Assembly (NCBI GenBank): GCA_007692665.1
Contig: REBP01000115.1
Location: 1 to 38,665, forward strand
Source of the DNA: Gemmatimonadales bacterium
GTDB lineage: Bacteria > Gemmatimonadota > Gemmatimonadetes > Longimicrobiales > Gaopeijiaceae
Length of the DNA stretch: 38,665 bases
Direction of reading: 5' to 3'
In this document: positions 2,009 to 15,095 of the stretch, in pieces
Layout of the letters: each line of letters begins with the position of its first letter
Position numbering within the stretch: position 1 is the first letter of the stretch
The notes under the pieces: generated by a model
The model's database searches: none
What the model was told of the DNA's origin: nothing
The model's input: only the letters and a program-made list of their open reading frames with translations
Made by a program: the position numbers and the translations under genes

Positions 2009-2962
2009 TCAGCCCCCACCTCCCCGTCTCAGCCAGCGCGAGGCTCGTCCCGCGAGGCGACGGGGCAGCGAGGGGGCACCGGGCAGGGATCGACAGGCGC
2101 GTCGGGCATCGGCCAGTTCGGCGGCACTCAGCGCGACTCCTGTGGCCCGCACGCTGCTCTCCAGGCTCTCCACGCGGCTCGCGCCGGGAATGGGCAGCAC
2201 GGTTGGGGAAAGATGGAGAAGCGTGGCGAGGATGACCTCCGCCGGCGCACACCCCACCTGCGCGGCCACGGCCTGCAGTGCCGGGTCGGCGAGAACGCCC
2301 TCCACCTTTCCGCTTCCCCCGAGCGGGGCATAGGGGAGGAAGGTCAGCCCCTCGCGGCGACACCAGGTCACGATGGGGATGTCGGTCTCTCCGAGCTCCC
2401 AGGGGGCGAGCCGGTTCTGAACCGAGACCACGGGGACCAGCTCCCTGGCCGCCCGCGCCTGCGCCACCGTGACGTTCGACAGCCCCACCGCCGCCACCTT
2501 CCCCTCCCCGAGGAGCCTGGACAGGGCGCCCACGCTCTCGAGAAAGGGCACCTCGGGATCCGGGGCGTGGAACTGGTACAGGTCGATGCGTTCGACGTCG
2601 AGGCGACGGAGACTCGCCTCGCATGCGGCGCGAAGCGCCTCCGGGCGACCGTCCCGCTCCCACCGCCCTCCCGGCCGGATCATCCCTCCCTTGGTGGCCA
2701 CCCTGACGCGCGGTGATCCATCGCGACCCCCGAAGCCGGCACCCATGCCGCGCAGCGCCTCCGCCACGAGGACCTCGTTGTGGCCGGTGTCCGCCTCGTC
2801 CAGCGCGTAGGCGTCAGCCGTATCGATGAAGGTGACACCCAGCTCCACGGCCCGCCGGACCACACGCAGCGCCGCCGGTCGTTCGGGACGACCCTTCAGC
2901 GACAGGGGCATGGCGCCCAGGCCCATGCGGAGCCCGCCCATGCGGTGGGGCGCGTTCTGCAC
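2009..2962 (-). CDS. Aldo/keto reductase
   Basis: This is an NADPH-dependent oxidoreductase of the aldo/keto reductase superfamily, a single TIM-barrel domain of ~317 residues. The catalytic tetrad is visible: Asp and Tyr in DTADAY, Lys in VATKGG and His in YQFHAPD. The late VLPIPGA motif is typical of the cofactor-binding end. The substrate cannot be read from sequence. I chose GTG 2962 because a GAGGG ribosome site lies just upstream and the start then follows the universal stress protein stop by 7 bases. ATG 2941 is the main alternative, and an upstream ATG near 3001 would overlap the stress protein. It is the last gene of a minus-strand run, and converges on the TPR gene with 27 bases between stops. 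Confidence 0.85.
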   Translation of the reverse strand: MQNAPHRMGGLRMGLGAMPLSLKGRPERPAALRVVRRAVELGVTFIDTADAYALDEADTGHNEVLVAEALRGMGAGFGGRDGSPRVRVATKGGMIRPGGRWERDGRPEALRAACEASLRRLDVERIDLYQFHAPDPEVPFLESVGALSRLLGEGKVAAVGLSNVTVAQARAARELVPVVSVQNRLAPWELGETDIPIVTWCRREGLTFLPYAPLGGSGKVEGVLADPALQAVAAQVGCAPAEVILATLLHLSPTVLPIPGASRVESLESSVRATGVALSAAELADARRACRSLPGAPSLPRRLAGRASRWLRRGGGG

Positions 2963-2969
2963 CGGGCCC

Positions 2970-3398
2970 TCAGGAGACCACGGTGACCGGTGTGGCGGCA
3001 TGGCGAAGGACCTTGTCGCTGACGCTTCCCATGACAAGGTTCTTCATGGGCGAACGCCCCCGGCGCCCCATGACGAGCAGGCTGTCCGGGTGGGCCTCGG
3101 AAAGTCGCACGATCTCCTCGGCCGGATCCCCGATGGCGGTTCGCTCGCGGAGATCGGCCGGGAGCTCGTCGGCCACGGCCTCGCGTACGGCATCGAAGGC
3201 CCGTCGCCCCGCGGACGCCCGGATGCGGTCGATCTCCTCGGCCGGGAGGCTGGCCAGTCCCACGAGCTCGGTGGAGACCGCGGAGAGCACGTGGAAGAGG
3301 CAGAGCTCGGCGCCCAGGCCTCGGGCCAGCCGGGCCGCCACCCTGGCCGCCCGGGTCGAGTTCTCCGATCCGTCGACGGGCACGAAGATTTCCTGCAT
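2970..3398 (-). CDS. Universal stress protein (UspA family)
   Basis: This is a 142-residue single Usp domain, the usual length. It starts with a VPVDGSENS nucleotide-binding strand. Near the C-terminus it has the full G-x2-G-x9-G-S ATP-binding pattern (GRRG...MGS), which marks the ATP-binding class of Usp. Family members are small cytoplasmic dimers linked to stress survival; the specific role here is unknown. ATG 3398 has a GGAG ribosome site 6 bases upstream. It lies between the Kdo transferase fusion gene and the aldo/keto reductase, and is probably cotranscribed with the latter. Confidence 0.9.
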   Translation of the reverse strand: MQEIFVPVDGSENSTRAARVAARLARGLGAELCLFHVLSAVSTELVGLASLPAEEIDRIRASAGRRAFDAVREAVADELPADLRERTAIGDPAEEIVRLSEAHPDSLLVMGRRGRSPMKNLVMGSVSDKVLRHAATPVTVVS

Positions 3399-3496
3399 GT
3401 GAGCTCCGGGTAACGGGGTGGGACGGCTCCGGGATCGTGCTGCGAACTCCCCGAAGGTAGGGCGGAGTCTGCCGGGGCTGCAACCCGCGGATCCCG

Positions 3497-5392
3497 CTAC
3501 CTCCGGACCACACCCCGGTCCGCCAGGAGGGACCGGAGTTCCGCGACGCGCCGGGCGTTCACGCCCAGGTCCGAACGGCCCACCCGCGACGCCGAGCGAA
3601 TCACGAGTTCATCGGACCCCCTCGCCCGGAAGAGCTCGACGTCGTCGACGAACCGGAAGATGCGGCTCTTCGCCTCGGCGTGAAGGAGGATTGCGCCGTC
3701 GGCCTCGTTCTCTCCCGCCGCCAGGTAGATGATCTCGGTCCGGTCCAGCTCCCGGACGGCCGCGGCGACCGCCTCGGCGAGGGCGGGTCCCGGCCGGGCC
3801 GCCCACTCGCCCGTCAGCACGACGGGCTCGGTGCCGTCGGGGTACCCCTGCCCGGTGTGGACGCAGTTGTCGGTGGCCGGGCAGGGAGCGAGCCCCGCCT
3901 CCAGGCTTCCCACCGTCTCGGGCGGTGCCGCCGTGCAGGCGATGCCGAGGAGGGGGAGGAGGCCGGCGGTTCGAGCCACCCCGCGCCGCGACCGGGGGGG
4001 TGGGGTGGCCACGCTCCCGCCCTCCCCGGCCGAAGGGGCTGCCCCGAGCCGGGCCGCCTCGATGATGAGCCGGGCGGAGCGCTCCGAAGCCCCCCGGTGT
4101 TCCCGAAGGATGCGAGGTCCCGCCTCCGCCATGGCGGCGTGGAGCCCCGGCTCGCGGAGGACCCGCGCCAGCGTCGGGATCAGCTCCTCGTCGCCGGCGC
4201 AGCGGATGGCCGCCCCGCCCGCCTCCGCCTGCCGGGCAATCTGGCGGAAGTTTTCCATGCGCGGACCATAGACGACGGGGACGCCGTGGGCCATGGGCTC
4301 CAGCGGGTTCTGCCCCCCCCCCATGCGAAAGCTTCGGCCCACGACGGCCACCGCCCCCAGCCCGTAGAGACCGGCAAGCTCCCCCACGGTGTCCAGGATC
4401 ACGACATCGGGACGCTCCGTTCCCGCCGGGCCCCGGCTCCTCCGCCACACCCTGAACCCCCGGCCCAGGGCGAGGGCCTCCACCGCGTCCGCCCGATCCG
4501 GGTGCCGAGGTGCCAGGAGCAGGCGGAGGTCGGTCCACCCCGTCGACCCGGTCTCCCCGTCCGGATCCCGCAGGGCAGCCAGCGCATCGAGCACCAGTTC
4601 GTCCTCGCCGGGGAACGTGCTTCCCGCCACCAGGAGGGGTGCGTCCCCGATCCCGAGTTCCTCGCGGAGTCTCGTGCGGTCCCCGGAGGTGAGCGAGGGA
4701 GCCTCCCGGTCGAACTTGGTATTGCCGGTCACGGTGATTCGCGCAGGGTCCAGGCCGAGTTCCTCGAAACGGTCGCGGTCCTCGGCCGTCTGGACCCCTG
4801 CAGCGGTCAGGCGGCGGAGCATCCAGCGGTAGAAGGGGCGAAGCCGTCGGGCGCGGGGCATCGTGCGGTCCGAGAGGCGGGCGTTGACGAGAACGACGGG
4901 GATCCGGGACGCGGCCTGCTGGAGGAGCGAGGGCCACAGTTCGGATTCTCCAAGGACGAGGACCGTGGGCTGAATGCGGCGGAGCGCGCGGGCGGTGGTC
5001 CACGGGAGGTCGAGCGGGGTGAACCGCCGCTCCAGGACATCGGGATAGAGGGCCTCGGCGCGTGCTCTTCCGGTCACCGTGGTGGTGCTCACGACGATCT
5101 CGGCCCGGACGTCCGGCGTGGCCTCCCGGAGGGCGGCGACAACCGGGGCCAGCGCCTCGGTCTCCCCCACCGAGACCCCGTGGAACCAGGCCCGGAGCCC
5201 CGGCAGGGGCGGGGGCGGCGGGAGCCTTCGTCCGCCTCCGAAGCGCTCCGGGCGCCCCTGGCGGGACCGGCCGAGAAAGAGGCGCCAGGCCGCGTAGAGG
5301 ATCCAGACGGGGCTCAGCAGGAGCAGGGCCGCCCGGTACGTGAGCCAGAGCGGGTCCCGGTGGGTCGGCGGAAGATCAGGGAGAGGGCGCAT
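3497..5392 (-). CDS. waaA: 3-deoxy-D-manno-octulosonic acid (Kdo) transferase fused to a DUF1499 domain
   Basis: Residues 1-~445 are a WaaA/KdtA glycosyltransferase, which adds Kdo from CMP-Kdo to lipid A precursor at the inner membrane. It has an N-terminal hydrophobic anchor (about 20-40), the catalytic-base motif SVGE (Glu77), GESELWP, and a C-terminal NPLEP...GP nucleotide-sugar site. The reading frame then continues without a stop into a second unit of ~170 residues with LAPCP...NCV, a VELFRARG segment and RSASRVGRSDLGVN, the DUF1499 signature. Between them (about residues 472-487) lies a stretch resembling a lipoprotein signal (LLPLLGIAC). GTG codons at residues 461 and 472 could start a separate DUF1499 lipoprotein in the same frame. 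WaaA alone is normally ~420-430 residues, so 631 is unusual. The methyltransferase gene lies 30 bases upstream. Confidence 0.9.
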   Translation of the reverse strand: MRPLPDLPPTHRDPLWLTYRAALLLLSPVWILYAAWRLFLGRSRQGRPERFGGGRRLPPPPPLPGLRAWFHGVSVGETEALAPVVAALREATPDVRAEIVVSTTTVTGRARAEALYPDVLERRFTPLDLPWTTARALRRIQPTVLVLGESELWPSLLQQAASRIPVVLVNARLSDRTMPRARRLRPFYRWMLRRLTAAGVQTAEDRDRFEELGLDPARITVTGNTKFDREAPSLTSGDRTRLREELGIGDAPLLVAGSTFPGEDELVLDALAALRDPDGETGSTGWTDLRLLLAPRHPDRADAVEALALGRGFRVWRRSRGPAGTERPDVVILDTVGELAGLYGLGAVAVVGRSFRMGGGQNPLEPMAHGVPVVYGPRMENFRQIARQAEAGGAAIRCAGDEELIPTLARVLREPGLHAAMAEAGPRILREHRGASERSARLIIEAARLGAAPSAGEGGSVATPPPRSRRGVARTAGLLPLLGIACTAAPPETVGSLEAGLAPCPATDNCVHTGQGYPDGTEPVVLTGEWAARPGPALAEAVAAAVRELDRTEIIYLAAGENEADGAILLHAEAKSRIFRFVDDVELFRARGSDELVIRSASRVGRSDLGVNARRVAELRSLLADRGVVRR

Positions 5393-5422
5393 GAACGATC
5401 CTGCGTCGGGGCGTGCGGGGTG

Positions 5423-6085
5423 TCAACGGGACGGCAGGCCGGGGGGACGTGGGCCCGGGGAACGTGGTGCAGGGGACCCGCCTTCCTCGGGGGAGGCGTC
5501 GAGGCGGCGGAGGATCCACCGCGACCGGAGGGAGGCCGGGGCGATGCGGAATCCCGCCTCCCGAACGGCGGCCTCCGTGTCCCGGTCCGGGCGGCACCCT
5601 CCCGCCAGGAGGGTCCACGCCGGCTGAACGCGCCCGGCAAGCCACGCTCCTGCGCGGGACCGGGGGCGCACGTGCTCCAGCATCCGGAGGGTGCCCCCGG
5701 GGGCGAGCACCCGTGCCACCTCGCCCAGGCCGCGCCCCGGGTCGTCCACCGAGCAGAAGACCAGGCTCGACACGACGACCTGGAAGGCGTCGTCCCGAAA
5801 GGGGAGGGCCTCGGCCCGGGCCCGGACGAGGGGAACTCCGGGGGCGCGTCGCCGGGCAGCCCGGAGCATGCCCTCGTCCGGGTCCATGCCGATGGCCCGA
5901 GTCCCCGGCGCGGCGAGGGGGAGATTCCTGCCGGTTCCGCAGCCCAGGTCCAGGAGCAGCGGGGGCCGGGGACCCGCCTCCGCCACCGGGGCCAGGAGGG
6001 AGCGCCGCCAGCGACCGAGCGCCACCCGGTCCAGGACCCACATGAGGGCGTCATAGAGGCGGGGGATCTGTTCGATGCCTCTCAT
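5423..6085 (-). CDS. Class I SAM-dependent methyltransferase (UbiE-like fold)
   Basis: This is a 220-residue protein with a Rossmann-type methyltransferase core. Motif I is DLGCGTGRN (about residues 46-54), the acidic SAM-ribose residue lies in IGMDPDEGM, and a post-motif VLAPGGTLRMLEH follows. The N-terminal LYDALMW and the loop arrangement resemble methyltransferases acting on lipids or quinones. A role on membrane lipid would fit its position just before the Kdo transferase gene, but this is inference. The C-terminal ~25 residues are Pro/Arg-rich and look disordered. The substrate is unknown. Confidence 0.8.
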   Translation of the reverse strand: MRGIEQIPRLYDALMWVLDRVALGRWRRSLLAPVAEAGPRPPLLLDLGCGTGRNLPLAAPGTRAIGMDPDEGMLRAARRRAPGVPLVRARAEALPFRDDAFQVVVSSLVFCSVDDPGRGLGEVARVLAPGGTLRMLEHVRPRSRAGAWLAGRVQPAWTLLAGGCRPDRDTEAAVREAGFRIAPASLRSRWILRRLDASPEEGGSPAPRSPGPRPPGLPSR

Positions 6086-6131
6086 GGGGGCGGCAGCCGG
6101 TGCGGGTCGCGGGATTCGGGCAGGACGCCCG

Positions 6132-6761
6132 TCAGCCGCCCGGGGACGTTGCCACTTCCACCGGGAGCGTGGTCTCGAGGTTGCCTTCCATGGAGGTGAG
6201 CAGGCCTCGGATCCGGTAGCTTCCGGGGGTCTCGGGGGCCGTGAGCACCAGCTCCCACTGGCGACCCTCGTCGCCGGGCTCGAAGCGCTCCTCTCCCAGC
6301 GCCTGCGTGAACATCTGCCCGTCGGACCAGCGGGAGACCACCTCGCCGTCGTCGTCCAGCAGGACCGCGTCGACGCGCTGGCCGTCCGGGAAGACCAGCG
6401 TGCGCGGCTCGTCGAGGCGGTTCACGACCCGGATCACGACCTGGATCGTGGCGCCGGGCGCGTAGGTGACATGGTCGATGCCCAGGCTGAGCTGGAGCCC
6501 GTCCGTCGCCGCCTCGGGGGATTCCGCCTCCAGGGGCGCCCGGTCGTCGGCCGGCTCCGGCGTCCCGGTTTCTCCGCATCCCCCAAGCATCACCCCGGCA
6601 AGGAGAACGGCGAGTCCCGAAGCGCTGCGGGCGGAACGGGGCGTTCGGAAGGGAACGTCCGTCCTGTCTCCGGGCACGGTGCGACAGGGCGGCAGAGGCG
6701 GTGAAGGTCGCGAGGGATCCGAAGGCTTCCAGCGAGTCGAGGCGGGCCGGTCTGGGCGCAT
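6132..6761 (-). CDS. Lipoprotein with BsuPI-like domain
   Basis: A hydrophobic segment ends in an LGGC lipobox (Cys62 from the chosen ATG), so the mature protein should be lipid-anchored. Residues ~85-205 form a beta-rich domain (ATIQVVIRVVNRLDEPRTLVFPDGQRVD... onward) resembling the BsuPI fold, first named for an intracellular proteinase inhibitor of Bacillus. Whether it inhibits any proteinase is not shown. The 60-residue lead before the lipobox is too long for a normal signal peptide, so the true start may be GTG 6677. It lies between another lipoprotein gene (56-base gap) and the methyltransferase gene (46-base gap), both on the same strand. Confidence 0.7.
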   Translation of the reverse strand: MRPDRPASTRWKPSDPSRPSPPLPPCRTVPGDRTDVPFRTPRSARSASGLAVLLAGVMLGGCGETGTPEPADDRAPLEAESPEAATDGLQLSLGIDHVTYAPGATIQVVIRVVNRLDEPRTLVFPDGQRVDAVLLDDDGEVVSRWSDGQMFTQALGEERFEPGDEGRQWELVLTAPETPGSYRIRGLLTSMEGNLETTLPVEVATSPGG

Positions 6762-6817
6762 GGTGAGTCGGGGTCGGAGGGTTTTCGAGATGCGATGAGT
6801 CCGGTCTCGCCGATGGG

Positions 6818-7702
6818 TCAGCGGGGCGGCACGGTGATGCGAACCGCTTCGAGTTCCACCATCGATACGAGGCGGAGCCGGCCCGTTCGATGGAACTCGT
6901 CATAGGCCGCCACGTCGCCCAGGTCCCCTTCGGCTTCGAAATTCTCGTAGTCCTGCAGCACGATGCCTTCGACGGCCCGGCGGTTCACGGCGCGGCGGAA
7001 TCGGGTTCCACCTTCTCCCGTATGATAGCGGTAGGCCATGAAATCGAGCATGTGGGTGTCGCGGTGGAACCAGTAGACGAACTGATCCTCCCAGTCGCGG
7101 CCGCCCCCTTCGGGCTCGAAGGTCGCCTCGATCTTCCGGTAGGGCTCCCCGTCCAGTTCGGCGTCGCCCAGGTCCCGGAGGCGGACGGCCGGATCCTGCA
7201 GGCGCCAGGGGAGGAGGGCGAAGTAGACCACCGAGTTGACGTCGGTCTCGAGGGAGGCGAGTTCCTGCGGCGCCAGGTCGATCCGCGTGCCGTTCACGGT
7301 GCGCGTCGTGCCGTCGTTGTCCATGCGGTCCACGACCGTGCGACCGTCCGGGCCGGTGGTCCGCCGCTCGAAGGCGAAGAGGCCGTCGTCGTACACCACG
7401 AGAAAGGGGGTTTCCCGGAACTCGAACTCGAGCCGGAGATTGCGAAAACGCTCTCCTCCGTGGGCCTTGATGGCGTCGTGCACCACGCGCTCCGGCGTGC
7501 CTTCGGGCGGGGGAGGGGCGCCGGGCGTGCCGGAGGTGCAGGCGGTGACGAACAGGGGCAGTGCGAGGACGACCGCGAGGGCGATCGCGAGGGCGTCCGG
7601 CGAGGAACCGGGATGCCGGCCCCGGGGGCGGCCGGCAGGAGTTCGGCGGAAGAATCCCCCGGGGGCCCGACGAGGGGTGGATGGAAGGGGACCTCGAGGC
7701 AT
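6818..7702 (-). CDS. Outer-membrane-type lipoprotein, DUF6503-like
   Basis: The start ATG 7702 has a GGAGAGG ribosome site 3 bases upstream. After a basic N-terminus, a hydrophobic segment ends in VTAC (Cys55), a usable lipobox. The mature region begins with the HDAIKAHGGERFRNLRLEFEF pattern and contains many aromatic beta strands (VYWFHRDTHMLDFMAYRYH). It resembles the DUF6503 family of secreted proteins, whose function is unknown and whose general fold recalls lipid or hydrophobe binders. It is the first gene of the minus-strand run down to 2009, and is divergent from the plus-strand gene at 7853. Longer open frames upstream on this strand are antisense to that gene and are not used. Confidence 0.75.
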   Translation of the reverse strand: MPRGPLPSTPRRAPGGFFRRTPAGRPRGRHPGSSPDALAIALAVVLALPLFVTACTSGTPGAPPPPEGTPERVVHDAIKAHGGERFRNLRLEFEFRETPFLVVYDDGLFAFERRTTGPDGRTVVDRMDNDGTTRTVNGTRIDLAPQELASLETDVNSVVYFALLPWRLQDPAVRLRDLGDAELDGEPYRKIEATFEPEGGGRDWEDQFVYWFHRDTHMLDFMAYRYHTGEGGTRFRRAVNRRAVEGIVLQDYENFEAEGDLGDVAAYDEFHRTGRLRLVSMVELEAVRITVPPR

Positions 7703-7852: not shown

Positions 7853-9688
7853 ATGACCTCCCCCGGCACGCCCCGCTTCCGTTTCCGGGCCCCAGACGGG
7901 TCCGAGGTTTCGGTCGGCTCGGTGGAAGATCTTTCCTCGAGGCTGGAAGCGGGGGAACTGCGCCCGGATACGCCCCTCTTCGACGCCGGAACGGGGGCCT
8001 GGGCGAGAGCGGGGGACGTCCCGGTCTTCCAGTTCGTCCTCGAGGAACTCCGGGCCGAGGGGCGCCTTCCCCCCGAGGAGGAAGTCCTGCTCCTCCCCGA
8101 CCCTCCTCCCTCGGAACCCATCGACGCCGGTGCCGCCTTCGAGCCGATCCGGCACGACGCAGACGCACCGAGACCGCGGGCGTCTCCCACGACGGACCCC
8201 TTCGAGCTCCACCTGCCGCTCTCGAACCCCCTCGATCCCCTCGAGGGCGCCGGTGCGGGACGGAGGGAGGAGGCCGGTGGGCGGGACGGGCCGGCAGGGG
8301 ATGCCGAGGCGGGGGCGGCGGCGGATCCGGGGCTCGGGGCTGACCCCGACGCTTCGCCTCGACGGGAGAAGGGGGCGGCGCCTTCCGGGGATGGGGAGGA
8401 TGCGGCCGAACCGTGGTTCGAGGATCGCCCCTTCACGGAGGCGGAGGTCGAGCCCGCCGGAAAGGCTGGCCAGGGAACTGGCCAGGGAAAGGACGAGCCG
8501 CGTACGCCGAGTTCCCGCCCGCCCCGGGAGGGGGAACGGGGAGGCTCGCCCCGGGATCCGGACATCGACCCGAGCCCGCTTCATGCCTGGCTCACCCACG
8601 GGCCGCCCGCGCCCGCAGTCCCCCCGGCCCAGGCGTCGGCCACGCGGGAGGCCCCGGACGATGTGCCGGGTCGCCGACCGTCGACAGGACCGGGCTCGAC
8701 CCCCGAAGAGGCGGCGGACCGTTCCTCCGTGCCCCTCGATGCCGACGCGGACGCCCCGCGGGGCAGCCCGGCACCGACGGCACCACCCCTCAGGATTCGA
8801 ACGGCGTGGGAAGACGACGCAGAGGTCGAGGACCCCCGTGCCGTCCGCCTCCAGGCACGGCGCCGGCGGAGGAATGCCCGGACCCTGGCGGGCCTGGTGG
8901 CCGTGGCCATCCTGGTCATCGGAGGGGCCGCCATCTTCGCGACGACCCGGTCCACCGGCGTGGCTACCGCCCCCGACACGCCTCCCGGTTCACTCCCGGG
9001 AGACGTCGCCCCGGACCCGGCCGTCGCCCTGAACGGCGTGGCACCGCCCCCGGGGCTCGAGGCCGAGGCGAACCTTCTCTGGCGAGACCTTCCCGGACAG
9101 GTCTCGGGGGTCGTGGATTCGCTCCGGGTGGAAGCCGGGCTTTCCGATGCCCCGCCCAGGGAATGGCTGGGCGGCTACTACCTGGCCAACGCCCGGGAAT
9201 TCCCGGAGGTCGTGGCATTCTGGGAGAGTTACGGCGCCTTCGTCGAGCGGCTGTCGGGGCAGGATGCGGAACTCGCGCAGACGGCGGCTCGACGCGCCAT
9301 GGGCCAGGGAGCCGCGTCGGAACTCGAGGCGCTGGAGGCGCCCGACCGGGAGCGGCTCCTCGCGTTCGTGGCCGAACGACACGACCGGATGCGTCCCGCC
9401 CGAATCGACCGGTTTCTCCACCTGCAGCGAACGGCGGAGGCGGCCCTGGGACTTCACGAGTTCCTCGTGCAGAACGGGGCGTCCATCACCCACTCCCCGG
9501 CCCTGGGCCGCGGGCTGTCGGCGGACCCGGTGCTGGAGGCCGTGACCGAGACGCCGGCGGTACGCCGCGAGATGGAGGGACATCTCGACCGGATCTTCGA
9601 GGCACTGGACCGAACCCGGGGAGGCGGTCAGCCCTCACTGGCGGGGCTGCGCTCCGAACTGTTCGGCAGCCTGGGCCGCCCGCTCTGA
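7853..9688 (+). CDS. Single-span membrane protein with GYF-like N-terminal domain
   Basis: The 611 residues fall into four parts. Residues ~4-60 look like a GYF_2/DUF4339-type module (RFRAPDGSEVSV, then LEAGELRPDTPLFDAGTGAWARAGDVPVF). Residues ~70-325 are acidic and Pro/Gly/Arg-rich, probably disordered. One membrane span lies at about 344-363 after a RRRRNAR stop-transfer cluster. The last ~240 residues are a helical domain rich in Glu, Ala and Arg without a recognised family. The positive-inside rule places the GYF-like head in the cytoplasm and the tail outside. No function is assigned. GGAG lies ~10 bases before the ATG. Its 3' end overlaps the oppositely oriented glycosyltransferase gene by 54 bases. 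Confidence 0.75.
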   Translation: MTSPGTPRFRFRAPDGSEVSVGSVEDLSSRLEAGELRPDTPLFDAGTGAWARAGDVPVFQFVLEELRAEGRLPPEEEVLLLPDPPPSEPIDAGAAFEPIRHDADAPRPRASPTTDPFELHLPLSNPLDPLEGAGAGRREEAGGRDGPAGDAEAGAAADPGLGADPDASPRREKGAAPSGDGEDAAEPWFEDRPFTEAEVEPAGKAGQGTGQGKDEPRTPSSRPPREGERGGSPRDPDIDPSPLHAWLTHGPPAPAVPPAQASATREAPDDVPGRRPSTGPGSTPEEAADRSSVPLDADADAPRGSPAPTAPPLRIRTAWEDDAEVEDPRAVRLQARRRRRNARTLAGLVAVAILVIGGAAIFATTRSTGVATAPDTPPGSLPGDVAPDPAVALNGVAPPPGLEAEANLLWRDLPGQVSGVVDSLRVEAGLSDAPPREWLGGYYLANAREFPEVVAFWESYGAFVERLSGQDAELAQTAARRAMGQGAASELEALEAPDRERLLAFVAERHDRMRPARIDRFLHLQRTAEAALGLHEFLVQNGASITHSPALGRGLSADPVLEAVTETPAVRREMEGHLDRIFEALDRTRGGGQPSLAGLRSELFGSLGRPL

Positions 9689-11728
9689 CGCGTCGCCCCC
9701 TGCCGCGGGGGGCACCGGCCCTTCCGGGGGTTCCAGCGCCAGGCGAAGCACGCGGTGAACACTGCCCCGCGGACGGTCCGCCGTGACGATCCGGGCCCCG
9801 AGCCCTTCTGCCAGGGCCGTCCACTCGGACACGGGGCGGTGTCGGAGCGGGGCCGCATCGCGCCCCATCCATCCCTCCCCGCGGTGCGCGTTCACCCACG
9901 CATCCGCCCTCGCGAGCATTCGGTGTTCCCATCCGCCCGGCGGGCCGCGGTAGACCGACTCCAGGACCACCACCCGCCTGCGGGCCACGCGCAACGCCTC
10001 CGCCAGCGCCTGCTCGGGATCGGCCGTGTGATGAAGGACGAAGGAGAGAAGGACCGTGTCCACGGACCGGTCGGGAAGTGGCAGGGCGGCGGCGTCTCCC
10101 CGGATCGATCCCCCCCGGATCGATCTCCCGTCGACGGATCCCTGGCCGGCGGGGTCCCGGAGGGTCGCCGCTCCGGGCTGGGGGTCCACCACCAGGACCA
10201 TGCCCCCCGGCAGGTACGGCGCCAGCGCCCGGGCCATGTCGCCCTCGCCGCCACCCACGTCGAGGAGGCTCGACCCCCGGATCGAGGGGGCCACCCACCG
10301 CGCCTTGCGCCGCCCGGCGGACTTCCGGAGAGGCCGGAGGAGACGCTCCCTCCCCGCGTTCACCGCGAGTGCGGCCATCCCGCCCCAGAACAGCACGGCG
10401 AGGGGGGTTGGCGCGATGCCGCGGTAGAAGAGGTAGGTCAGGAAGGCGGCCCACGACGCCCACATCCACGGACCCCGGCCCGTGGGCGTGAGGGCGAGGA
10501 AGGGGAGGACCCAGAGCAGGTACCAGGGGTGCACCGTGGTTGCGGTGACCAGGTAGAGGGAGAGGATGAGCACGCTCCCGCGGGCGAAGTGCTCCACGGA
10601 TCCCGCGGCATGGCGGAGTCCGATCCAGAACGCACCTCCCACGGCGACCCATCGGAGCGCCGGACCCAGCCAGTGCCCGGTCTCGACGCCGGCGAGTCGC
10701 CATCCGACCTCGCGGAGGAGCGCGTAGAGGCCGGCATTGAACTCGAAGAGGCTGACGTACAGCTGGGCGGAGCCCCACACAAGCCCCAGGTCGGAAACCC
10801 GCAGGAAGGGGAGGGAGAGGAGGAGTGCGACGATCGCCGCCGGCAGCATCTCGCCCACCCTGTCCCTCCACCCGGGACCGGGTCGGGCAGCGGATCGCGA
10901 ATCGTTTCCCTCACCTGCTTCGGCCCCCAGGGCGCGCCAGAGGAGCGGAGCCAGGAGGATCGGGATTCCCTTGGAGAGCACGGCGAGGGCGAGCCCCATC
11001 CACGCGAGCCACCCGCGACGGATGGCCACCCCCCAGAGGACGAGTCCCACCCCGAGGATCATGCCCCCCTCGCTGTGACCGCTCCCGGCAACGGTCACGA
11101 GGACCAGGGGGTTCCACGCATAGAGGACGAGGTGGGCGCGCCGGCGGGGGACCGAGGCCCCGAGTGCCTTCCAGATGGCCAGGACCCCGGCGAACTCGAG
11201 GAGGGTGAAGCCGACCCTGACGGCGCGACCCGAGGCGGGCCATCCCGTCACGTCGTGAACCCACCCGCCCAGCAGGAAGACGAGCTGGGAGAGCGGCGGG
11301 TAGACCGAGTGCCATCCGGGCGAGTTCAGGTTCCGGAAGAGCATGTCCTCCTGGAAGGGAGCGAGGACCGGGTCATCGGGGGCGTAGCGGTAGGGAGGCA
11401 CGCCCTGGATCCCCACCCACCCGTCCCACACGTACCGGAAGAGGTCGTCGGAGAGATCCTGGACGGGGAGGAGGAAGAGGGCGCGGAGGAGGAATGCCCC
11501 CCCCAGCAGCACCACCGGGGCCTCGATCCATGCCCCGTGGCGACGCCAGAGATGAAGGAGTGCGAGAAAGGCCGCCGTCCACGGAATGACGGCGAGGTGC
11601 AGGTTTTCCCGTTCCGGCCCCAGCGTCGCCAGCACGAGCATGGAGACCGCCAGGACAAGGGCGCCACCGAGGGGGGACGCCTTGCCGGGAACAGTGTCAC
11701 CGGTGGGGGACACTTGCGTCGGCGTCAC
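9635..11728 (-). CDS. Polytopic membrane glycosyltransferase fused to a SAM methyltransferase
   Basis: Residues 1-~455 contain about ten hydrophobic spans. An early loop reads DLSDDLFRYVWDGWV...GVPPYRYAPDD and is followed by SVYPPLSQ; acidic residues in the first outer loop are typical of GT-C-fold polyprenol-phosphate-sugar transferases of the GT87/mannosyltransferase type. Residues ~480-690 are a class I methyltransferase with motif LLDVGGGEGDMA (Asp490), VLVVDP, and SFVLHHTADPEQALAEALRVA. There is no stop or start between the two parts. A joint role in making and methylating an envelope glycan or glycolipid is an inference. The start GTG 11728 has GGAG 6 bases upstream. The C-terminal codons overlap the 3' end of the plus-strand gene by 54 bases. 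Confidence 0.8.
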   Translation of the reverse strand: MTPTQVSPTGDTVPGKASPLGGALVLAVSMLVLATLGPERENLHLAVIPWTAAFLALLHLWRRHGAWIEAPVVLLGGAFLLRALFLLPVQDLSDDLFRYVWDGWVGIQGVPPYRYAPDDPVLAPFQEDMLFRNLNSPGWHSVYPPLSQLVFLLGGWVHDVTGWPASGRAVRVGFTLLEFAGVLAIWKALGASVPRRRAHLVLYAWNPLVLVTVAGSGHSEGGMILGVGLVLWGVAIRRGWLAWMGLALAVLSKGIPILLAPLLWRALGAEAGEGNDSRSAARPGPGWRDRVGEMLPAAIVALLLSLPFLRVSDLGLVWGSAQLYVSLFEFNAGLYALLREVGWRLAGVETGHWLGPALRWVAVGGAFWIGLRHAAGSVEHFARGSVLILSLYLVTATTVHPWYLLWVLPFLALTPTGRGPWMWASWAAFLTYLFYRGIAPTPLAVLFWGGMAALAVNAGRERLLRPLRKSAGRRKARWVAPSIRGSSLLDVGGGEGDMARALAPYLPGGMVLVVDPQPGAATLRDPAGQGSVDGRSIRGGSIRGDAAALPLPDRSVDTVLLSFVLHHTADPEQALAEALRVARRRVVVLESVYRGPPGGWEHRMLARADAWVNAHRGEGWMGRDAAPLRHRPVSEWTALAEGLGARIVTADRPRGSVHRVLRLALEPPEGPVPPAAGGDASERAAQAAEQFGAQPRQ

Positions 11729-12932: not shown

Positions 12933-15095
12933 TCAGAGGGGCGAGACCCCGGTCAGTTCCAGCGCCACCGGTTGCCCCGGGAATTCCTGCCTGACGAGGA
13001 TGTGGGGTCCCTCCGCCCGGAGGAAGAGGGTGACCGTTCCCTGTTCACCGGTCACCTCCACCCTCCAGCAGTCGAACGTTCCGGCGGGGACCTCCACCTC
13101 TTCCCGCCCCACGACCCTGGCCTCCACGACGGTGCCCTGGCCCTGGATGACGTCGAGATAGGGGATCCGGAGACGGGTTCCGTCCTCGAGCCGGGCAGCG
13201 GCCATGGCCCATTCGTCCATGCCCGGGAGCAGAAGCCCCTCGGCGTCCTCGTCGATCTCCCGCTCCCCCCCCAGCTGCGCAGGGAGGCTGGCCTTCCCGA
13301 TCATTCGCCCGTCGACGACGTCGATCTGCACCTCGATCCGGAGCCCGCCGCCGGACTGGCTCTGGCGCAGCGACCGGGGGGCGAAGTCGGTAGCCCCGAA
13401 CCTGAGAACGGACTCCTGTGCGCCGCCCCCGGGCTGGGCCATCGTCGTCGTGGAAACCCAGTCGTCACCCTCTCGCTCCAGCCGGTACGATGCCGTTCCC
13501 GCCGGGTTGCCCTGCACGAGGAGCTCGTAGCGGCGTACCCCCTCCTCGAGGCGGCTTGCGTCCCAGGAGACCTCGGCATCGGCCGGTGACAGGATCTCGG
13601 ACCGGTCCAGCGGCTCGCCCTGGATATCCATCAGGGTGACCGGCGCGATCGCTTCCAGCGCCTCGAGCACCTGGGCCCCGTCCCCCACGACCACCACCAC
13701 GCTCCGCTCCGGCCGCATCACGCGTGCCCCCACCTCCTGCACCGCCTCGGAGGACACGGCGCGAATGCGCGCCGGGAAATCCGAGATCTCCTCCACGTCC
13801 CGGTCCAGGAGGAGAGCCGTGGCGAGGCGTCCGGCGACCTGGCCCGCTGTTTCGAGCTGGAGGGGGAAGCTGCCGGCCAGGTAGTTCCGGGCCGCATCGA
13901 GTTCATCGGGGGGAACCGGCTCCGACCCCATCCGGTCCATCTGGAGAAGCAGCTCCACGACGGTGGAGTCGGTGACCGGGGTCCGGACCTCGGCCGAGGC
14001 GGTGAAGAGTCCCGTGCCCGCCGGTCGTGACACCGACGAGTAGGCGCCGTAGGTCCAGCCCCGTTCCTCCCGCAGGATCCGGAAGAGCCGGGAGTCGGCA
14101 CCGCCCCCGAGGACGCGGTTGGCCACCTCGATGGCCGCAAAATCGGGCGAGTCCCCTGCCACCCCGGGCCGCCCTGCCAGGACCACGGACTGGACGGAGC
14201 CCGGTCGGTGGACCAGGTAGATGCGCGGTTCCTGGATCTCCCCCGGCGTCGCCAGGACGGGCGGGGCCGCCGGACGCCCGGTCCAGTCCCCCAGGTGGCG
14301 GTTCGCCAGGCGCTCGATCTCGTCCCGGTCCACGGCCCCGGCCACCATGAGGAGGGCACCCTCCGGCTGGAGCGCCCGGTCCCGGAAGGCCACGAGGTCG
14401 TCCCGGGTGATCGCCGCCACCGATTCGGGTGACGGGCTGATGCCGTACGGATGGTCGTCGCCGTAGAGGATGCGGTTGAAGTGCCGGCCGGCGATGGCCT
14501 GGGGCTGGCCCAGCTGGGCCTGGAGACTCGACAGGGTCTGCCTTCGCGCGATCTCCACCTCGCCCTCGGGGAAGTCGGCGTTGCGTGCCACGTCCGCGAG
14601 GAGTTCGAAGGCCACCTCGAGATGCTCCGAGAGCACGGTGGCGCTGACGTTCATGAAGTCCTGTCCCGCCCCGGCCGTGAGCGTTCCTCCCACACCCTCG
14701 ATGGTCTCGGAAATGTCGAGGGCCGAGCGCGAGGTCGTCCCTCTCGTCAGGACGGTGGAGGCGAGCCCGGCCACCCCGGCGCGCTCCGGCGCGGCGAGCG
14801 AACTGCCGCCTCGCTGGTACAGCCGGATGCTGGCCACCGGCTGGGTGCCGTAGCTGAGGACCACCACCTCGATGCCGTTTCCGAGGGTGAATCGCTCGAA
14901 CTCCGGAAAGGAGATGGAGCGGGCCTCCATCGGAGGCGGAGGACCCTGCTGGGCAGGGAGCAGAGAGGGGTTCCCGACCAGGGCCATTCCGCCCAGCGCG
15001 AGGGCGGTGACGGCCGCGCCTCCGATGGTGCCTCCGATGGTGCCGCCGGCCCTGCCGGGTGTGCGCGGTGCGAGGGTTCCGTCCAGGCGCATCAT
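12933..15095 (-). CDS. M16-family peptidase subunit lacking the zinc motif, with extra C-terminal domain
   Basis: A signal segment (residues ~20-50, ending LLPAQQ) is followed by two insulinase-type (M16) halves over residues ~65-480, including FTLGNGIEVVVL and later VVLAGRPGVAGDSPDFAAIEVANRVLGGG. Where an active M16 enzyme has HxxEH, this protein has AGVAGLASTVLT, so it cannot bind zinc there. It is expected to be the non-catalytic partner of the upstream gene, as in two-chain M16 systems. Residues ~505-720 form an added beta-rich domain (RYELLVQGNPAGTASYRLE...VPAGTFDCWRVEV) that resembles DUF3108-like periplasmic modules. The start ATG overlaps the upstream stop in a 4-base ATGA, indicating translational coupling. 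Confidence 0.88.
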   Translation of the reverse strand: MMRLDGTLAPRTPGRAGGTIGGTIGGAAVTALALGGMALVGNPSLLPAQQGPPPPMEARSISFPEFERFTLGNGIEVVVLSYGTQPVASIRLYQRGGSSLAAPERAGVAGLASTVLTRGTTSRSALDISETIEGVGGTLTAGAGQDFMNVSATVLSEHLEVAFELLADVARNADFPEGEVEIARRQTLSSLQAQLGQPQAIAGRHFNRILYGDDHPYGISPSPESVAAITRDDLVAFRDRALQPEGALLMVAGAVDRDEIERLANRHLGDWTGRPAAPPVLATPGEIQEPRIYLVHRPGSVQSVVLAGRPGVAGDSPDFAAIEVANRVLGGGADSRLFRILREERGWTYGAYSSVSRPAGTGLFTASAEVRTPVTDSTVVELLLQMDRMGSEPVPPDELDAARNYLAGSFPLQLETAGQVAGRLATALLLDRDVEEISDFPARIRAVSSEAVQEVGARVMRPERSVVVVVGDGAQVLEALEAIAPVTLMDIQGEPLDRSEILSPADAEVSWDASRLEEGVRRYELLVQGNPAGTASYRLEREGDDWVSTTTMAQPGGGAQESVLRFGATDFAPRSLRQSQSGGGLRIEVQIDVVDGRMIGKASLPAQLGGEREIDEDAEGLLLPGMDEWAMAAARLEDGTRLRIPYLDVIQGQGTVVEARVVGREEVEVPAGTFDCWRVEVTGEQGTVTLFLRAEGPHILVRQEFPGQPVALELTGVSPL

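Follow-up and report, generated by a model that had tools for sequence, protein, structure and literature searches.

A Kdo transferase gene and a DUF1499 lipoprotein gene merged in one reading frame of a Gemmatimonadales bacterium, probably with two products

In the 38,665-nucleotide stretch of DNA analysed here in its whole length (the window), a Kdo transferase (WaaA) and a DUF1499 domain are encoded by a single open reading frame of the minus strand (3497..5392), and the explanation that we consider probable is that an acquired waaA merged in frame with a resident lipoprotein gene, giving both a fusion and a separate lipoprotein. A foreign-type waaA, presumably of horizontal origin, would first have arrived directly upstream of, and in frame with, the resident gene for the DUF1499 lipoprotein, and the stop codon between the two would have been lost, or never set up at the joining. 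Initiation at ATG 5392 would then give a 631-aa inner-membrane Kdo transferase on the cytoplasmic face, continued by some 40 disordered linker residues and by the DUF1499 domain, for which the former signal peptide may provide export to the periplasm; the fusion is the product of every completed round from 5392 because no stop precedes TAG 3499. Initiation at the internal GTG 4012, which we infer to be in use, would give the ancestral small lipoprotein as a 171-aa precursor, to be exported, lipidated and processed at Cys486. If the fusion protein is made, a core LPS enzyme would bear an extracytoplasmic lipoprotein domain, and the gene would have been caught in the act of merging with its neighbour, with the inner gene retaining its own start.

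The frame is free of internal stops over 631 codons, from ATG 5392 to TAG 3499-3497, just as a sequence-only reading of this DNA had described it, and the two domains that this reading had called complete are borne out as such by Pfam and NCBIfam matches. Glycos_transf_N (PF04413) covers residues 48-229 in Pfam (3.5e-55; 186.8 bits against a curated cut-off of 23.9; profile positions 4-179 of 179), and DUF1499 (PF07386) covers residues 501-622 (1.5e-22; 80.6 bits against a curated cut-off of 22.6; profile positions 2-113 of 114). The whole WaaA module spans residues 18-443 (4064..5341, minus strand) by Pfam, NCBIfam and alignment to PDB 2xci, and the DUF1499 domain lies at 3527..3892 of the same strand, as delimited by Pfam and by structure models. 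In DNA of about 70% GC, long open frames commonly arise by chance, an example being the 839-aa antisense frame that overlaps 3497-5392; a single frame with two complete Pfam domains is not explained by chance, and the GC content by codon position keeps one phase throughout the ORF, with no change of frame. The AlphaFold2 model, built on 29 aligned sequences, shows WaaA as far as residue 451, a segment with pLDDT below 50 at residues 454-496 and a separate DUF1499 domain thereafter, which is modelled as an alpha/beta domain. The N-terminal hydrophobic helix of WaaA (residues 14-39; 5276..5353, minus strand), defined by the model and by hydrophobicity, is a probable inner-membrane anchor, and the most hydrophobic 11-, 15- and 19-residue windows all begin at residues 21-22. 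On the same strand, the frame is preceded by a class I methyltransferase gene (5423..6085) and followed by a universal stress protein gene (2970..3398), both assigned by Pfam. No promoter- or terminator-like site was found by simple consensus in 2900-7000, and RNA structure at the waaA-DUF1499 junction is no stronger than in shuffled sequences.

The WaaA half is a divergent member of its family, not one to be filed under the equivalog subfamilies NF004385-NF004389, given that the NCBIfam WaaA models (PRK05749; NF004385-NF004389) align over residues 18-443 with scores below the equivalog cut-offs (the best being 312.5 vs. 438 bits). It shares a common family with the Aquifex aeolicus WaaA/KdtA (PDB 2xci, 2xcu) across residues 46-412, with the catalytic Glu and the CMP-binding residues conserved: in the alignment to 2xci, S74, E77, E149 and K226 correspond to S28, E31, E98 and K162 of the A. 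aeolicus enzyme, and R296, N362 and E365 to its R212, N273 and E276, whose catalytic and CMP-binding roles have been described (PMC6286764). The active-site residues are thus intact as judged from this alignment. Unlike the A. aeolicus protein, the present one does not end at the normal C-terminus but has about 180 further residues, which include a second domain. The ORF 3497-5392 is the sole match to PF04413 and also the sole match to PF07386 in its genome, a draft of 258 contigs that is 95% complete with 4% contamination. LpxC and LpxK were found on another contig, which makes a lipid A pathway likely in this bacterium.

The linker between the two domains aligns with the signal peptide of free-standing DUF1499 lipoproteins, having the same Arg-rich n-region, short hydrophobic stretch and Cys. 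The lipoprotein-signal-like stretch seen in the sequence-only reading is therefore confirmed by the alignment to relatives: it occupies 3935..4012 of the minus strand, with the Arg-rich n-region, the hydrophobic LLPLLGIA and Cys486 (codon 3935-3937), and the latter aligns with a Cys that is invariant in 14 of the 14 aligned sequences of the bacterial family. The lipobox is GIAC, with Gly at -3, which is not the commonest residue there. The putative lipoprotein start is the internal GTG at 4010..4012 (residue 461), near the position where WaaA stops in relatives, and it is preceded at a distance of 8 nt by a Shine-Dalgarno-like GGAGG (4021..4025, minus strand) with a duplex energy of -11.5 kcal/mol. 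Among 484 internal start-like codons in the genes of the window, this ribosome site is in the top 2%, nine of the 484 being preceded by sites equal in strength; its strength by itself proves nothing, but its position is exactly where the lipoprotein start is expected. The other candidate, GTG 3979 (residue 472), lacks a good ribosome site. Several listed gene starts in the window also have weak ribosome sites, and therefore this genome may not depend on Shine-Dalgarno pairing. The alternative raised by the sequence-only reading, either a genuine fusion or a pair of genes in a common frame, the second starting at an internal GTG (4012 or 3979), thus changes its shape: both sides are supported together, with 4012 and not 3979 as the start. 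In-frame internal starts with their own ribosome site and a shorter protein are known from genes within genes, clpA and others being among those cited in PMC11005335; what would set 3497-5392 apart from the clpA type is that its internal start would yield the product of an entire former gene, signal peptide included. The proposed topology, with a cytoplasmic transferase and a periplasmic DUF1499 part, fits the sequence, although the hydrophobic stretch at the junction looks like a weak membrane anchor of signal-peptide length, with a Kyte-Doolittle 19-residue mean of 1.41 vs. 1.76 for the N-terminal helix.

The check for the same fusion in related genomes, which the sequence-only reading had suggested, was run, and no genome searched had the same domain order: among the matches listed, no second WaaA-DUF1499 frame was found in 59 relatives, then in 121 genomes of the bacterial family, nor in a phylum sample of 395 genomes, of which about 157 have a DUF1499 match and 356 a WaaA match. 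Nineteen DUF1499 open frames, mostly the longest listed, were read across the phylum, and none of them contained WaaA. The opposite arrangement, adjacent genes parted by a stop codon, which that reading had named as evidence against a fusion, did not appear either, the two genes never being neighbours in the relatives searched. As a control, the M16 peptidase-DUF3108 ORF of the window (12933-15095, minus strand) was recovered as a continuous match in the same-genus genome G001 (69%) and in many relatives, and therefore the search method is able to detect conserved fusions. This M16-DUF3108 frame, kept across the relatives searched, is an old fusion, unlike WaaA-DUF1499. In G001, which is 75% complete, neither the fusion nor the 12 kb that flank it had a match as DNA, and contig C85 of this genome stops 370 bases beyond its copy of the M16 gene. 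A plasmid collection gave only partial WaaA matches, none of them covering at least 80% of the query, and almost no conserved gene order was found near waaA or DUF1499. In G113, a TPR gene resembling that at 257-1981 of the window is found about 5 kb away from DUF1499. Long N-terminal extensions of the WaaA frames of relatives, of up to about 500 codons, were also considered, and the six that were read by eye look like GC-rich frame noise. The merger looks real, recent and peculiar to this lineage.

Elsewhere in the family and phylum, DUF1499 is mostly a free lipoprotein with varied non-LPS neighbours. The free lipoproteins of G113, G107, G015 and G027 are 43-55% identical to the present one over the lipoprotein part and share with it the n-region, the hydrophobic stretch, the Cys and a CPxxxNCVHTG motif, whereas these family lipoproteins are separate genes with varied neighbours. 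Such neighbours in relatives encode an amidohydrolase, beta-lactamase-family serine hydrolases, an M20 peptidase, an ABC transporter ATPase and a bicarbonate transporter, and in the ten neighbourhoods scanned no LPS gene stood beside DUF1499. We found no function for DUF1499 in the literature, with two passing mentions in the open literature. The DUF1499 model found no match under E 0.001 in Foldseek, and its VIA-align matches (Z 8-9 with adaptin appendage and KA1, 7.1 with BamC) are too weak to name a function.

It has to be asked, of course, whether the fusion is instead a working bifunctional protein, in which a DUF1499 domain in the periplasm, physically linked to the Kdo transferase, would sense or handle either lipid A intermediates or the state of the envelope, the fusion having been selected. 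This would suit the only WaaA of the genome, with its catalytic residues intact and LpxC and LpxK of the lipid A pathway at hand, as well as the Arg-rich segment ahead of the hydrophobic stretch, which gives the right topology; moreover, in the family genome G019, WaaA is fused to a membrane-anchored domain with no obvious internal start, such that a C-terminal fusion looks tolerable. We nevertheless regard it as unlikely, because the pair occurs in a single genome among those searched, the DUF1499 neighbours of relatives are hydrolases, transporters and the like rather than LPS genes, the hydrophobic stretch is short, and the lipoprotein start codon, the ribosome site and the Cys have all been kept, none of which a pure fusion would need. 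The more specific proposal, that a selected 631-aa fusion couples cytoplasmic lipid A glycosylation to an envelope signal through the tethered periplasmic DUF1499, seems to us very unlikely; if the selected-fusion reading were true, it would provide the first function for DUF1499.

Mergers with other partners occur in the same bacterial family. In G101 (L058:3655-6225) and G019 (L067:46-2775), WaaA is in frame with a hydrophobic segment and a domain with PHP-like motifs, for which no Pfam match was obtained, and in these two cases, like in 3497-5392, waaA has merged in frame with the next gene downstream, which encodes a membrane-anchored protein. They differ from it in the partner, which in G029 (L063) and G112 (L068) is a separate gene directly downstream of the waaA stop. 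The inner ATG of G101 retains a GGAGG. The gene of the PHP-like domain, as these four genomes suggest, is a recurring neighbour of waaA. DUF1499 also appears with other partners: in G114 (L070:3384-5750) and G017 (L071:1601-3799), two species of one genus, the frame of the DUF1499 lipoprotein continues into an M14 zinc carboxypeptidase, and in G059 (L108, contig C28 near 290265), DUF1499 and a cytochrome P450 share a single open frame. Given that mergers of unrelated neighbours recur in the family, a lone fusion is weak evidence for a shared function. The merger of waaA with the lipoprotein gene is one that we infer to be tolerated rather than selected. The tie of DUF1499 to lipid A glycosylation, implied by the sequence-only reading on the basis of the shared frame, loses its ground because such mergers recur, besides the absence of the pair from any other genome searched and the non-LPS neighbours of DUF1499, and the case for such a role is weak. 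We suggest keeping the general caution in view that the function of DUF1499 is not to be deduced from a single fusion in a GC-rich family where mergers with unrelated partners recur. In the window itself, a 697-aa frame at 9635-11728 (minus strand) carries a methyltransferase at residues 489-584 preceded by about 480 residues with no Pfam match, and this may be either a further merger or a frame that is too long.

Could the stop codon be present in the organism and missing from the assembly? The sequence-only reading had worried about a frameshift hidden by C/G runs near 4000-4080, which does not hold as a simple explanation. One of the two other minus-strand frames has stops at 4182 and 3816 and none between, and the second has stops at 5378 and 3611 and none between; both are therefore open at the junction, and one indel cannot hide a waaA stop there. 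A single indel near 4000-4080 would instead create a waaA tail of about 60-130 aa overlapping DUF1499, not two clean genes, and such a tail is unlikely because the WaaA C-termini of relatives fall within -6 to +22 of window residue 450 (about 70 distinct genomes or records), except for three fused rows. A wrong base at one lost stop codon is possible, and two separate genes whose stop was erased by a consensus error would then have to be explained by a substitution, not an indel. The draft state of the genome, its contamination and the GC-rich homopolymers of the signal peptide region, including a C7 run near 3990, speak for such an error, as does the fact that separate genes are the ordinary arrangement. 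Consensus substitution errors in assemblies are rare, however, and the similar mergers at the waaA end in G101 and G019 also go against it, and hence we hold this explanation to be unlikely.

The preferred account, of an acquired waaA merged with a resident gene, draws on the different histories of the two halves. In the WaaA tree, the window sequence belongs to a clade of 21 rows (100/100) that also holds Acidobacteriota, an ectothiorhodospiraceal sequence and one of the WaaA types of the family, and the nearest relatives, G017, G021, G002, G016 and G015, chosen by their M16-DUF3108 gene, fall in the other clade of 26 rows (100/100); inside its own clade, the position of the window is weakly supported (85/41), with an end branch of 1.19. 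One bacterial family thus holds two strongly separated WaaA types (100/100), and the type of the window is absent from its nearest relatives. For the DUF1499 part, G017 and G114 come closest in identity and in path, and the DUF1499 tree leaves the window unplaced. The methyltransferase at 5423-6085 is 67-69% identical to the proteins of G021, G114 and G017, in whose fetched methyltransferase flanks neither waaA nor DUF1499 was found. The simplest history, as read from these sequences, is that a foreign-type waaA took its place among resident genes and displaced the waaA already there, and the lack of the old copy could alternatively come from assembly incompleteness. A chimeric contig, joining the waaA of one organism to the DUF1499 of another, would fit a WaaA type foreign to the lineage and an assembly contamination of 4%, but it is highly improbable, since waaA is flanked by relative-like genes on both sides (upstream, the methyltransferase at 67-69% and the M16-DUF3108 frame at 69% in G001; downstream, DUF1499) and the genome has no second waaA. 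For the aldo/keto reductase gene at 2009-3037 (minus strand), neither the same-genus genome nor genus g17 gives a match at E 0.001; the best matches come from G090 and G022, both of which carry WaaA of the window clade, and the gene may share the history of waaA.
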